From Kingella oralis (GTDB lineage Bacteria; Pseudomonadota; Gammaproteobacteria; Burkholderiales; Neisseriaceae): DNA of 6,646 nt. Positions 2,872 through 6,478 of this stretch are shown here, piece after piece. Each line of letters opens with the position of its first letter. The stretch's first letter is position 1. The stretch is taken from positions 1 to 6,646 of the forward strand of contig CAJPSG010000062.1 of assembly GCA_905373195.1 (NCBI GenBank), in the 5' to 3' direction. The translations under genes were made by a program, and so were the position numbers. The notes beneath the pieces are model-generated. The model was not told the origin of the DNA. It was given only the letters and a program-made list of their open reading frames with translations, and searched no databases.

Positions 2872-3879
2872 ATGAGCCTACACCGCAACATAGACGACTG
2901 GTTTCTTGGCTATAAAACCCGCGCTGTTCACCCAAAAGAAAACCCTATTTACCTCAAATCAGGCAGCCACAAAGGCTTAAAAACAGGTTTCGGATTACGC
3001 AATCTCACCGCTGCTGCCAAACGCCACCCCGAAGTGATGGTTAAAATCCCCAAACGATTTAGCCAAAACTCCAAAGGTTTGCACGGCATCCGCAATCATT
3101 TGGATTACATTTCACGCAATGGCGAAGTACCCATAGAAACCAACACAGGTGAAAAGCTGACCAACAAACAGCAAATCAAAGCACATCTAACCAAACTCAA
3201 AAATCTTGGTATTACCGAAGAATCGCCCCACCGCGAAGCCATCAATATTGTTCTATCCATGCCCGCAGGCACCAACCCCGACAAAGTATTAAACGCTGCC
3301 CGCGCCTTTGCTGCCGAGCGTTTTGCACACCACCAATACGCCCTAGCCCTACACCACGAATCCGAGCGCGAGGGTGAACCACCGCATCCGCACGTTCATC
3401 TCAGTGTGTTGGTGCGCGACAACATGGGCAACCGCATCAATCCACGCAAAAACGATTTATTTGAATGGCGTGTTCATTTTGCCGAACGACTGCGCGATGA
3501 GGGGGTGCAATGCGCCGCCACCCAACGCAAACATCGCGGCAAAACCCAAAAAGCCGAAAGCGGCGTCGTTCGCGCCATCAAACAGCGCGACGTAGAACCC
3601 GAAATCGTCAAAAGCTGGCAACAGGAATTGACCGCCGCCATTCAAGAAAACCGCAGCCCAAACGCGCCCTTTGCCTACAAACAAGCCCAACCCGAACACT
3701 ACCGCCACGAGTTAGACGCATGGGAACACGAAGTACGCCAAGCACAACAAACAGGACGCGCACCCATTCATCCTTTTCAACAAAAAGCCAACAACACACG
3801 GCAAAAAATCAGCCAAGAATACGCCCAAATTGCCCGTGCGCTGTATACCAACAAGGCTACAAAACCGAAGCCCGCTTGA
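2872..3879 (+). CDS. mobA: MOBP-type relaxase (conjugative DNA nickase)
   Basis: The 335-residue relaxase would nick one strand at oriT, stay covalently bound to the 5' end through a tyrosine, and pilot the strand into the recipient. Motif I is visible at residues 75-84 (NHLDYISRNG), with Tyr79 as the predicted nucleophile. The metal-binding motif III is at 161-178 (HHE…HPHVHLSV), with His172, His174 and His176 as the likely triad. The HLDYISRNG form is characteristic of the MOBP/VirD2-like group, whose members usually cleave at YATCCTG|Y; a matching site lies at 5771-5778. Residues ~240-330 are a charged helical tail. The protein lacks the long C-terminal extension of IncP TraI, and an LPD7-like module is instead encoded upstream. 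AAGGA at 2861-2865 lies 6 bases before the ATG. The stop overlaps the next start (TGATG). Confidence 0.92.
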   Translation: MSLHRNIDDWFLGYKTRAVHPKENPIYLKSGSHKGLKTGFGLRNLTAAAKRHPEVMVKIPKRFSQNSKGLHGIRNHLDYISRNGEVPIETNTGEKLTNKQQIKAHLTKLKNLGITEESPHREAINIVLSMPAGTNPDKVLNAARAFAAERFAHHQYALALHHESEREGEPPHPHVHLSVLVRDNMGNRINPRKNDLFEWRVHFAERLRDEGVQCAATQRKHRGKTQKAESGVVRAIKQRDVEPEIVKSWQQELTAAIQENRSPNAPFAYKQAQPEHYRHELDAWEHEVRQAQQTGRAPIHPFQQKANNTRQKISQEYAQIARALYTNKATKPKPA

Positions 3880-4145
3880 TGAGCAAACTCAAACAGCAAT
3901 TAGACGCGCAAAGTTTGGAAACCCAAGCCGAACAAGACTACCGCAGCCTGAAAACCCAAATGGATAAATCCGTCCAAAAAACCGAGCCACCCGCAACACC
4001 CAAACCCACTTTCAGGCAGCCTGAAAATGAGCAAAGCGAACCCAGCACGCAAACTGGTCAAGCTCCAAATGGACGCATTCCATCCCCTTACCGCCCCAAC
4101 AAACTACAAACCGAAAATGAACAAGATACCGATATGGAATATTAA
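3879..4145 (+). CDS. Small disordered mob-operon protein, overlapping the relaxase stop
   Basis: This 88-residue gene starts with the ATG that shares one base with the relaxase TGA (TGATG, 3877-3881), an arrangement typical of termination-reinitiation. The frame is open further upstream, to an ATG at 3510, but that part lies inside the relaxase gene out of frame and gives an implausible Arg/Thr-rich peptide, so I place the start at 3879. Residues 1-35 form a charged, probably coiled-coil helix (SKLKQQLDAQSLETQAEQDY). The remainder is Pro/Gln/Glu-rich and probably disordered, and contains FRQPEN (45-50) encoded by a DUS. I recognise no family. It could be a relaxase partner, or a detached C-terminal tail of the relaxase. 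rdgC begins 2 bases after its stop. Confidence 0.7.
   Translation: MSKLKQQLDAQSLETQAEQDYRSLKTQMDKSVQKTEPPATPKPTFRQPENEQSEPSTQTGQAPNGRIPSPYRPNKLQTENEQDTDMEY
4014..4025 (+). repeat. DNA uptake sequence (AGGCAGCCTGAA) inside coding sequence
   Basis: Exact 12-mer within the 88-residue gene, preceded by TTTC and followed by AA. It is read in the frame that gives FRQPEN, the same peptide as the copy at 676-687. A partial copy, CCGCAGCCTGAA, lies nearby at about 3941-3952. Confidence 0.8.
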
Positions 4146-5140: not shown

Positions 5141-5542
5141 ATGCTTAATTTAACAAAGACAATTGGTATGCAACACAATTCAAACCACCCCATCTATCTT
5201 TTTACCAATAACCTAAATTGCCAACCCACCGCATACGGACAAAAAAAGCTCACAGAACTATTTGCGTATCTTGATAAGCATTTAGGCACAATCACAGCCA
5301 TAAACTGCCACAGTTATCGCCGTTTGGATGGGTGTTTTTTTACAATGGACTTTGTTGGCAACAAAGGCACATTGGCACTTACCTTAATCCCTGATACACA
5401 GTATTCTTGGTCGGACTATTTAACAGAAAATGCCCCCTTGGTATCGGACGCTGATATTTATCTAACAGATGCAACAGACGCATTTAAGCTGATGCAGTAT
5501 GTATCACAGCATTATGGTCATGCAGCTTCTGTATTTGGCTGA
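5141..5542 (+). CDS. Orphan small protein, unknown function
   Basis: The reading frame gives 133 residues from the ATG at 5141. A second ATG at 5168 (giving 124 residues, MQHNSNHPIYLF) is a plausible alternative, because 5141 lies only 10 bases after a 19-bp hairpin. Neither start has a strong Shine-Dalgarno sequence. The predicted protein looks globular and soluble. It has an amphipathic helix (GQKKLTELFAYLDKHLG), then alternating strands (TAINCHSYRRLDGCFFTMDFVG, then GTLALTLIP) described as two blocks, and a C-terminal helix (DAFKLMQYVSQHYG). There is no signal peptide or membrane segment. Its base composition is more AT-rich than rdgC and the relaxase gene, which suggests a separate cargo acquisition. 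It is followed by a strong terminator. I do not recognise the family. Confidence 0.6.
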   Translation: MLNLTKTIGMQHNSNHPIYLFTNNLNCQPTAYGQKKLTELFAYLDKHLGTITAINCHSYRRLDGCFFTMDFVGNKGTLALTLIPDTQYSWSDYLTENAPLVSDADIYLTDATDAFKLMQYVSQHYGHAASVFG

Positions 5543-5602
5543 AAAATAATTTGCTGGCAAAGTTTTCATTTCAACAAGACCTTTTACGCATCAAGCAAAA
5601 AT

Positions 5603-5648
5603 AAGCCCGTAGCCGCTCTCAAATATTGGGAGTGGCTACGGGCTTTTT
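5603..5648 (+). terminator. Strong intrinsic terminator
   Basis: Stem 5603-5620 with 5628-5645: 18 bp including two G-T wobbles, core AAGCCCGTAGCC/GGCTACGGGCTT, loop AAATATT. T5 follows at 5644-5648. An A-run on the left side (5597-5601) would give a T-run on the opposite strand, so it may work in both directions. It closes the gene ending at 5542 and insulates the oriT region. Confidence 0.88.
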
Positions 5649-5671
5649 GCCATTACACATTCGCCACCAAA

Positions 5672-5698
5672 TGCCATCACTTTGACAAAGAGATGGCA
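5672..5698. repeat. Inverted repeat between terminator and oriT
   Basis: TGCCATCACTTTG (5672-5684) and its reverse complement (5686-5698) match at 12 of 13 positions around one central base. There is no T-run on either side, so it is not an obvious terminator. It could be a relaxosome-protein binding site at the outer edge of oriT, or an extragenic palindrome. Confidence 0.6.
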
Positions 5699-5720
5699 AA
5701 CTTACAGCCCAGCGCAGCGT

Positions 5721-5785
5721 TTCCGCCTTTGGGCGGAATGACAAAACACGGTGTTTTGTCGGCGAAAGCCTATCCTGCGTCTAGT
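5721..5785 (+). other. oriT: Candidate oriT with IncP/MOBP-type nic site (nick between 5777 and 5778)
   Basis: TATCCTG|C at 5771-5778 matches the IncP-type nic consensus YATCCTG|Y, used by MOBP relaxases such as the one encoded at 2872-3879. Upstream, on the side where such oriTs carry their relaxase-binding inverted repeat, are two perfect palindromes. One is TTCCGCC/GGCGGAA (5721-5727, 5732-5738). The other is GACAAAACAC/GTGTTTTGTC around one G (5740-5760). The latter can be extended imperfectly by CTTT..CG with CGAAAG, bringing the right arm to about 5768, roughly 9 bases from the nick, similar to the 8 bp in RP4. Polarity: the strand would leave toward higher coordinates. The assignment is inferred from pattern plus relaxase class. 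Confidence 0.72.
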
Positions 5786-5982
5786 ATAAAAATACGTTTT
5801 ACTCGGGAGAGATTGGGAATTTTGAAAGGGAAGGAACACGGAAAGCGGAAAGTTTGGGTTATTTTATGAAATATGTCGTTAAATATGACAAATGATAGTC
5901 TTTATTAGGTTTAAATAGTCTTTTGATTTGTCCTTAAATATGTCCTCTATTTTCTAAATTAGGTTGATTTATTCAAAAATAG

Positions 5983-6002
5983 GCATAAATTAACGCTTAT
6001 GC
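5983..6002. promoter_or_regulatory. Dyad GCATAA-N8-TTATGC
   Basis: Six-base arms GCATAA (5983-5988) and TTATGC (5997-6002). The same half-site forms the ungapped palindrome at 6100-6111, which suggests two binding sites for one dimeric regulator. Confidence 0.45.
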
Positions 6003-6077
6003 TCTTTATTTAGTTACTCATATAGGCTACATTAGTCTAGTTATCTGTCTATCAAATCAGCTATTTTAGTCTTTATC

Positions 6078-6106
6078 TTGCTTATTATGTCTGGTATTGG
6101 CATAAT
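6078..6106 (+). promoter_or_regulatory. Putative sigma-70 promoter for the gene at 6137
   Basis: TTGCTT (6078-6083) as -35 and CATAAT (6101-6106, five of six bases of consensus) as -10, spaced 17 bases. The -10 lies inside the palindrome 6100-6111, so a bound repressor would block it. Confidence 0.5.
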
Positions 6107-6111
6107 TATGC
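6100..6111. promoter_or_regulatory. Perfect 12-bp palindrome GCATAATTATGC over the -10, putative operator
   Basis: Exact self-complementary 12-mer, 25 bases upstream of the start codon at 6137 and overlapping the -10. It shares half-sites with 5983-6002. Autoregulation by the downstream helix-turn-helix protein is the simplest inference. Confidence 0.5.
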
Positions 6112-6136
6112 GGATTGTATTTTGGAGTAAGAAAAT

Positions 6137-6478
6137 ATGACGAATAGCACAAATACCCTTTTACAAGAATTTATTGCTGAAAACACAGCGAGCCGAAAAA
6201 CAAGAAAGTTGGATAGGTTTGCGAGCGATATTGATGAGTTAAAGAGTTTAGGTTTTACCGATAACGATGTTCTGCGTTATCTTTCTGAAAAGCATGGGTT
6301 TATTGTCAGCAAGAGAACATTAAGCCGCTTTATTAACCGCGACAAAAAGGCAAAATCCACACTATCCGAAACCGCTCAACCTGCTCACCAGCCACAACAA
6401 CCTAAAAGTGGAGTAATTCAATCTCAAATGGGTAAATTTGATGCGCGTGAGAAAATCAATGTTGATGAGTGGAAGTAA
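6137..6478 (+). CDS. TraK/StbA-like small helix-turn-helix protein, putative oriT-binding
   Basis: The product has 113 residues. GGAG at 6124-6127, 9 bases before the ATG, supports the start. Residues ~20-68 follow the layout of TraK-type relaxosome proteins: a basic cluster (RKTRKLDRF), a helix ending in a Gly turn (DIDELKSLGF), a second helix (DNDVLRYLSEKHG) and a recognition-like helix (SKRTLSRFINR). StbA-type plasmid proteins have a similar arrangement. Residues ~70-95 are a Pro/Gln linker, and the tail ~96-113 is short and acidic-basic mixed. TraK of RP4 binds and bends DNA next to oriT and is encoded just beside it, which matches this gene lying 360 bases from the predicted nick behind a repeat-bearing AT-rich region. 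Family membership is by pattern only. A simple autorepressor or a stability protein is possible. Confidence 0.65.
   Translation: MTNSTNTLLQEFIAENTASRKTRKLDRFASDIDELKSLGFTDNDVLRYLSEKHGFIVSKRTLSRFINRDKKAKSTLSETAQPAHQPQQPKSGVIQSQMGKFDAREKINVDEWK

Follow-up and report, generated by a model that had tools for sequence, protein, structure and literature searches.

A likely MOBP-class origin of transfer in Kingella oralis and its relatives among the Neisseriaceae

The PromA and IncU plasmids pair a TraS/TraR-type MOBP relaxase with a MobC partner, a combination also found in the stretch of Kingella oralis DNA described here. For the IncU plasmid RA3, two-base substitutions at the nick site are reported to render a test plasmid untransferable (PMC4175270). 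A VirD2-like MOBP relaxase nicks, in vitro, the octamer that marks the predicted nick site of the present locus (PMC3772185). The repeats of the stb region of R388 are bound by StbA (PMC3098194), and in the gonococcal conjugative plasmids a putative IncP-type nic lies between traJ and traK (PMC2848598). The Neisseriaceae also harbour ICEs. In ICEriNK most variation falls between the relaxase and the integrase, and rdgC is disrupted in some copies; a K. kingae ICE inserted in rdgC is cited in the same paper (PMC7371117). The main text of that paper contains no occurrence of ‘oriT’ or ‘origin of transfer’, and among the literature matches listed no oriT is described for this Neisseriaceae ICE group.

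The DNA analysed here, termed the window, is 6,646 nucleotides long. The block at 5707-5784 is very probably the oriT of a Kingella-type ICE, with a predicted top-strand cut between 5777 and 5778 by the relaxase that the window itself encodes. This reading, which comes from sequence comparison, draws on stacked hairpins flush with TATCCTG|C, on the recurrence of the site together with the relaxase, on base pairing that is kept among relatives, on a near-constant orientation and on a nick-proximal module like that of the PromA plasmids.

Organisation of the window

The features referred to below are, in window coordinates:

2270-2788, + strand: MobC/NikA-like relaxosome protein (Pfam MobC, E=8.6e-5)
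2872-3879, + strand: TraS-type MOBP relaxase, read as far as a change of frame (Pfam Relaxase); its C-terminal part continues in another frame to 4145
5600-5648, no strand assigned: terminator-like inverted repeat bounding the oriT region, 87% complementary
5707-5720, + strand: SL1 position, GCCGC/GCGGC in most relatives, degenerate in the window (alignment A2)
5721-5738, + strand: hairpin SL2, TTCCGCC-TTTG-GGCGGAA, arms 5721-5727 with 5732-5738, read directly
5740-5760, + strand: hairpin SL3, perfect 10-bp arms GACAAAACAC/GTGTTTTGTC, 5740-5749 with 5751-5760, 1 base between them
5761-5770, + strand: mini-hairpin SL4, GGC-GAAA-GCC, abutting the nick heptamer and common to PromA oriTs
5771-5778, + strand: nic core TATCCTG|C (TATCCTGC), predicted nick between 5777 and 5778
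5778-5784, + strand: first bases 3' of nic, CGTCTAG; in relatives CGTTTAG, CGTTCTA and others
5873-6092, + strand: degenerate array whose nine GTC words are best phased at about 10.7 bp
6137-6478, + strand: StbA/TraK-like small HTH protein, 113 aa (position, weak profile similarity, helical HTH-like model)

The MOBP relaxase reported in an initial annotation of the window is confirmed by its match to Pfam Relaxase and by a match to NCBIfam MobP1 (E=7.3e-30), which falls below the curated cut-off of that model. Residues Y79, S81, H161, H172, H174 and H176 are invariant in all 35 aligned relaxase sequences, and the catalytic part of the window's protein is an open frame in which each of them is present. 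A 432-aa relaxase, P0005, found on other contigs, is 97% identical to that of the window. Frame changes are seen in the LPD7 (primase-like) region at 2-2212 and in the relaxase C-terminus at 3840-4145, reflecting either decay or sequencing error.

The gene order in the window is LPD7, MobC, relaxase, RdgC, oriT and HTH gene. In the related genome G050 the order begins with VirB8, a coupling protein, a PriCT-2/Toprim/LPD7 primase, ArdC, MobC and the relaxase, continues with DNA methylases and other cargo, a zeta toxin, the oriT and the HTH gene, and ends with an HTH_3 repressor, a ParA-like protein, an integrase and tRNA-Leu. The window follows the same order with less cargo, and ArdC was not found in it. 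On the G050 context, with its integrase beside tRNA-Leu, the element is most likely a piece of an ICE and not a plasmid. A megablast search of the whole window against plasmids returned no match. Six AGGCAGCCTGAA and three AGGCTGCCTGAA words also occur in the window, which we take to be Kingella/Simonsiella-type uptake sequences.

Folded as single-stranded DNA, the segment 5705-5786 reaches -21.5 kcal/mol, compared with -11.3 (sd 2.42) in shuffles (z -4.21; none of 200 as good), and the length of the 10-pair stem within the 32 bases before TATCCTG was equalled in none of 2000 dinucleotide shuffles. The perfect inverted repeat noted initially upstream of the nic-like octamer can be read directly in the 10-bp arms of SL3. 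Two tandem hairpins had been counted before nic; both are present, but SL4 brings the number to three in the window, and most aligned relatives have four, the extra one being the upstream hairpin SL1. Three of the five SL1 pairs are broken in the window's row of alignment A2, in which 95.8% of SL1 cells are paired (n=29 sequences).

The octamer of the IncP nic consensus is indeed present at 5771-5778, but taken alone it is no more than would be expected by chance: YATCCTGY matches once in the window, against 0.51 expected, and at least once in 77 of 200 shuffles. The case therefore rests on the architecture and on the relatives. The block carries an ATCCTG core, inverted repeats immediately 5' of it (SL3 and SL4) and a MOBP relaxase encoded alongside, three features of oriTs of the MOBP/IncP nick class. 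At gathering thresholds Rfam gave no match to the window. Ahead of the oriT block, at 5672-5698, there is a further near-perfect inverted repeat, TGCCATCACTTTG/CAAAGAGATGGCA, which does not belong to the block aligned across the family. The terminator that had been placed upstream of the region corresponds to the terminator-like repeat at 5600-5648.

Recurrence and conservation of the site

Of 83 Neisseriaceae genomes, 31 carry the relaxase family (E<=1e-10) and 52 do not. A relaxase-blind scan with the 17-mer around nic, allowing at most one mismatch, hit 13 of the 31 relaxase genomes and 2 of the 52 others (p=2.4e-5). The CGTTCTA variants came to light by looking near relaxase or HTH genes, and for this reason 13/31 against 2/52 is the unbiased figure. 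At two mismatches or fewer the same scan gave 38 hits in 30 of the 83 genomes, and a reversed-pattern control gave 10 hits. Motif hits in G018, G021, G025, G030, G036 and G037, and in G046, G069, G070, G071, G072 and G076, lacked the architecture in the one flank examined per genome, and the model, too, matched none of these genomes at E<=1e-4; the hits were discarded as chance or coding matches, in a triage that leaves out two further hits in G011.

In genome_contigs, which holds one genome for each of 84,980 species, the exact 17-mer is found in five stretches, three of them Neisseria with the same hairpins. The matches in an archaeal MAG and a Saprospiraceae MAG show no hairpins in the flanks examined and were rejected as chance, as were 16-mer matches in four viral contigs, whose examined flanks also lack hairpins. 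Exact-word scans of genome_contigs and viral_contigs with a single relaxase protein recovered no relative, though relatives exist, which marks a limit of that method.

A covariance model (R1), built from the 29 aligned sites of A2, recognised 27 genomes at E<=1e-4, with 38 matches in all; these genomes comprise 25 of the 31 with the relaxase and two of the 52 without (G033 and G005). The strong matches are mostly the model's own training rows; sites outside the training set occur in G079, G077 and G038, all with the relaxase, and in G005, without it. The scan took 52 first-look candidates per genome through strict filters, and misses are possible. In six of the 31 relaxase genomes (G037, G057, G071, G072, G073 and G081) there was no model match at E<=1e-4. 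The contig extends 1.3 kb downstream of the relaxase in G057 and 8.3 kb in G037, the relaxases of G071 and G072 contain internal stops, and that of G081 is cut by the contig start, with about 18 kb downstream. The misses in G037, G073 and G081 stay unaccounted for.

When one further match in G077 (E 2.4e-4) is included, 39 matches are available for an analysis of geometry. A relaxase lies within 30 kb of 29 of them and is upstream on the same strand in 28 of these 29, about 1.2-20.4 kb away, the sole linked site with the relaxase on the opposite strand being that of G003. In the window the relaxase start precedes the oriT by 2.9 kb, on the same strand. The counts of 38 matches and of 28/29 include a nic-less half site in G042 (L119 8251-8334), where an extra copy of SL1 and SL2 without the nic core lies 1.4 kb before the full oriT. 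In G038 a single oriT is split inside SL3 by about 0.8 kb (G038:C53:35805-36711, L155), and both G038 matches are its halves; the insert has ends resembling inverted repeats, which would fit an insertion element.

The remaining ten of the 39 matches have no nearby relaxase, with none on the contig in eight cases and a very distant one in two, as might be seen for a dispersed Neisseriaceae repeat that lies near mobility genes by accident. The distribution largely refutes this idea, which can for practical purposes be discounted: matches at E<=1e-4 number four at most in any one genome, only two of the 52 relaxase-less genomes are matched, the strand relation to the relaxase is nearly fixed, and the exact 17-mer is accompanied by hairpins in its Neisseria occurrences and not in the examined flanks of the other two. 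The initial annotation had proposed a likely oriT at 5721-5785 and had named scattered copies in genomes without mob genes as the mark of a dispersed repeat. Relaxase-linked recurrence, strand geometry and covarying hairpins all speak for the oriT.

Across the relatives, 96.2% of SL1 and SL2 cells pair, compared with 89.8% in shuffles and at most 58.2% when slid. In these two stems 15 cells are changed on both sides, against 3.4 in shuffles that ignore relatedness (0/500 reach this number), and three of the seven SL2 pairs have both-side changes across the 29 sequences. SL3 stems vary by element (ACACCG/CGGTGT, AAAACGC/GCGTTTT, AGGGTGGT/ACCACCCT and the window's GACAAAACAC/GTGTTTTGTC). Over the same 29 sequences the mean best SL3 stem has 6.8 Watson-Crick pairs, compared with 4.7 in shuffles, and stems that directly adjoin the nick heptamer average 3.9, compared with 2.7; neither value was reached by any of 100 shuffle sets. 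In some elements (L097, L100 and L101) SL3 merges with SL4 into a single long hairpin that abuts the nick. As the sequences change whilst the pairing is kept, the hairpin structure is, on this comparative evidence, under selection.

All 29 aligned sites have the same nic core, the rows having been picked with motifs that contain it, and amongst sites found by the model alone TATCCTGC is kept in G077, G005 and G038. The site at L094 6494-6577 (G079:C23) has the full hairpins with TATCCCGC in place of TATCCTGC, and its adjoining relaxase is about 53% identical to that of the window; a drifted nick core or a changed specificity is possible there. A second conserved box, roughly CAGGGGTGAGGTACGCGCGGA, lies about +40 to +67 after nic in many aligned Neisseria elements, and in the window, near 5829-5846, it is at best weakly recognisable.

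Hairpins of this kind might instead be transcription terminators between gene blocks, with TATCCTGC a chance octamer. An SL3 stem followed by a T-run in several relatives (e.g. AAAACGC...GCGTTTTTT) fits this proposal, as does the chance-level frequency of the octamer alone. It is nevertheless highly improbable. In the hairpin-bearing sites of the relaxase-blind scan mismatches fall only 3' of GCCTATCCTGC, while the stems vary, and the site tracks the relaxase in both distribution and orientation. PromA oriTs contain this nick-proximal module as well. A simple terminator scan of 5500-6200 called none, although the same scan missed the inverted repeat at 5600-5648.

The oriT-like site is also carried by plasmids without an annotated relaxase. 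N. lactamica pNL14 (L106 4372-4462) and pNL871104 (L107 4376-4466), of 5.8 kb each, have it at 80.5 bits (E 1.6e-21); the pNL14 site is a training row and that of pNL871104 has the same sequence. K. oralis pDSM18271 (L001 10389-10484) has two head-to-head sites about 66 bp apart, scoring 42.2 and 27.2 bits, from which transfer could start in either direction. On the + side of pDSM18271 there is a phased GACAA array (p 0.002), which resembles the reverse complement of the window's TTGTC-like word. All three plasmids are typed as non-mobilizable and have no relaxase in their (incomplete) gene table, and tblastn of five relaxases of this MOBP family against them found nothing (best E 0.30). No HTH gene of the family was found downstream of the oriT in pNL14 or pNL871104, and a test for phased repeats gave no array in pNL14. 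From the sites that they carry, mobilisation in trans by resident ICEs is predicted for at least these three plasmids. If they move in this way, mobility typing by relaxase only would undercount transfer in the Neisseriaceae. The 25.7-kb C. steedae plasmid pDSM2580_1 (L161 / L096), which has an annotated MobV relaxase, contains two partial copies of the site 12.7 kb apart with similar flanks, and is possibly a cointegrate.

The phased array and the adjacent HTH gene

Of 33 nic sites, 28 have an HTH ORF on the leading side, a call made by eye where the site falls outside A3, and at L120, one of the five sites without it, the examined stretch ends there. For 22 of the 39 model matches an HTH relative starts 184-430 nt downstream on the same strand. 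The TraK-like gene of the initial annotation is borne out as a small HTH gene at 6137-6478, its StbA/TraK likeness narrowing to position and weak profile similarity. NCBIfam StbA_2 is matched at E=0.017 by the window's protein and at E=0.0014 by its relative P0002, neither of them coming near the curated cut-off of that model, and StbA is not among the structure matches listed for the HTH protein.

When 24 regions are pooled, the DNA separating nic from the HTH gene shows repeated identical 5-mers at spacings of 10-11, 20-22 and 31-33 bp, with 156 and 139 pairs at 10 and 11 bp, compared with about 22 in shuffles. Considered singly, 19 of 27 elements have an array phased at ~10.5 bp (p<0.01), and the window and seven others fail. 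The window's GTC words, at 5875, 5898, 5918, 5930, 5942, 6035, 6047, 6069 and 6089, have a phasing equalled by 5 of 1000 random placements, the word having been chosen after looking, and the exact-5-mer test gives p=0.073, which is not significant. The array words differ between elements, with TAGAT, TAGAA, TTCGA and TTGTA amongst them.

This weak array, the degenerate SL1, the shift of the relaxase C-terminus into another frame and the splitting of the primase-like region over several frames would be consistent with a genuine oriT belonging to a dead or non-autonomous element, a copy movable in trans only or not at all. Such a fate is possible but doubtful. The relaxase frame is uninterrupted over its catalytic part and keeps every invariant residue, the nearly identical P0005 exists elsewhere, and in a short contig the frame changes may stem from sequencing errors.

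The two sites of G032 share an identical 102-nt core, while their arrays have a similarity of 0.37 and their HTH proteins an identity of 0.52. Each resembles a different G003 site, one with array 0.91 and HTH 0.96, the other with array 0.64 and HTH 0.85. In the other same-genome pairs (G003, G019 and G027) core identity is 0.50-0.67. Across elements, array similarity follows HTH similarity with r=0.65, or 0.62 when partial on the core (0/5000 permutations). After dereplication the correlation is 0.50 at <90% identity, 0.29 at <80% and 0.08 at <70%. At <80% the HTH value was reached in 13 of 5000 permutations, whereas the C-terminus of the same proteins gives r=0.06 (1560/5000); among HTH domains <70% identical, 1324 of 5000 permutations were as high. 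We read these sequence relationships as pointing to an array and HTH gene that form a cassette moving as a unit. By analogy with R388 StbA and RP4 TraK (PMC3098194), 5873-6092 is likely to be the binding region of the protein encoded at 6137-6478.

Intrinsic DNA curvature, through IHF or plain bending, could also give rise to AT-rich sequence phased at ~10.5 bp, and would sit comfortably with the failure of eight of 27 elements, the window included, at p<0.01 and with the loss of the correlation between word and HTH domain below 70% identity. Yet the words are specific and differ between the two same-core sites of G032, the correlation at <80% identity belongs to the HTH domain and not to the C-terminus, and the StbA-bound stb repeats of R388 (PMC3098194) pass a similar array test. 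Curvature in place of a set of HTH-protein sites is accordingly considered unlikely.

If the array is a set of HTH-protein sites, a two-module oriT can tentatively be proposed, although we lean slightly away from it: a shared hairpin/TATCCTG^C module would be combined with a swapped array/HTH cassette that marks out each co-resident element, like an incompatibility tag within the oriT. Were this true, one relaxase could move different Neisseriaceae elements and relaxase-less plasmids. With the swapped cassettes it can be tested directly how related conjugative elements sharing a cell might be distinguished from one another.

Proposed mechanism and comparison with known systems

In the proposed mechanism MobC and the relaxase (Tyr79) would assemble at the oriT block, and after the cut the relaxase would stay on the 5' end (CGTCTAG...). 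The HTH gene would lead the departing strand, and the relaxase and secretion genes would bring up the rear. Being 5' of nic, the hairpins would be found at the 3' end of the transferred strand, which trails, and the flush mini-hairpin SL4 may let the relaxase recognise ssDNA for the second cut and rejoining. The StbA/TraK-like HTH gene begins 0.36 kb downstream, and its product is predicted to coat the phased array that separates the gene from nic. Any co-resident element or relaxase-less plasmid with the core would, on account of this common sequence, be mobilised in trans. The widespread MOBP elements of Neisseria, Kingella and relatives would thereby gain a concrete, searchable origin of transfer.

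The initial annotation had assigned the site to the MOBP/IncP group. The nick class holds, but the closest relative is a PromA/IncU-type oriT, with a TraS-like relaxase, and not RP4/IncP itself. The relaxases of four PromA plasmids are 33-39% identical to that of the window. In all four, pIPO2, pTer331, pSB102 and pMRAD02, GGC-loop-GCC-TATCCTG^CAAT lies inside the published oriT interval, the corresponding hairpin in the window being GGC-GAAA-GCC; the intervals are those of the Figure 7 legend of PMC4175270, with the same numbering assumed between duplicate records. The PromA oriT is directly upstream of mobC and the relaxase gene, whereas that of the window is downstream, beyond other genes (about 1.2-20.4 kb in relatives). 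Given this difference in position, the site would work like a PromA oriT and is not filed as one. Neither a stacked set like SL1-SL3 nor the CGTCTAG flank occurs in the sequence examined around the four PromA sites, and the phased-array test is passed by none of these plasmids.

RP4 and other IncP plasmids share with the window the TATCCTG|C core and an inverted repeat 5' of it, and in IncP plasmids a TraK gene likewise lies on the other side of nic. RP4 differs in having one 16-bp inverted repeat (PMC3772185) and a different relaxase, TraI. The stbDR-StbA arrangement of R388 is similar in that an HTH gene lies beside oriT, with short direct repeats every 11 bp around its promoter (PMC3098194). 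The R388 relaxase is of the MOBF class, unlike the MOBP enzyme of the window, and the homology of its StbA to the HTH protein of the window type is weak (hhalign E 1.1e-4, probability 57).

Within the Neisseriaceae, the nic of the gonococcal conjugative plasmids belongs to a different system from the oriT described here. The likeness is to ICEriNK and ICENmu, which by their published description (PMC7371117) combine a MOBP relaxase with MPF-T secretion and a terminal integrase, and share a variable region between relaxase and integrase, a link to Kingella and an association with rdgC.
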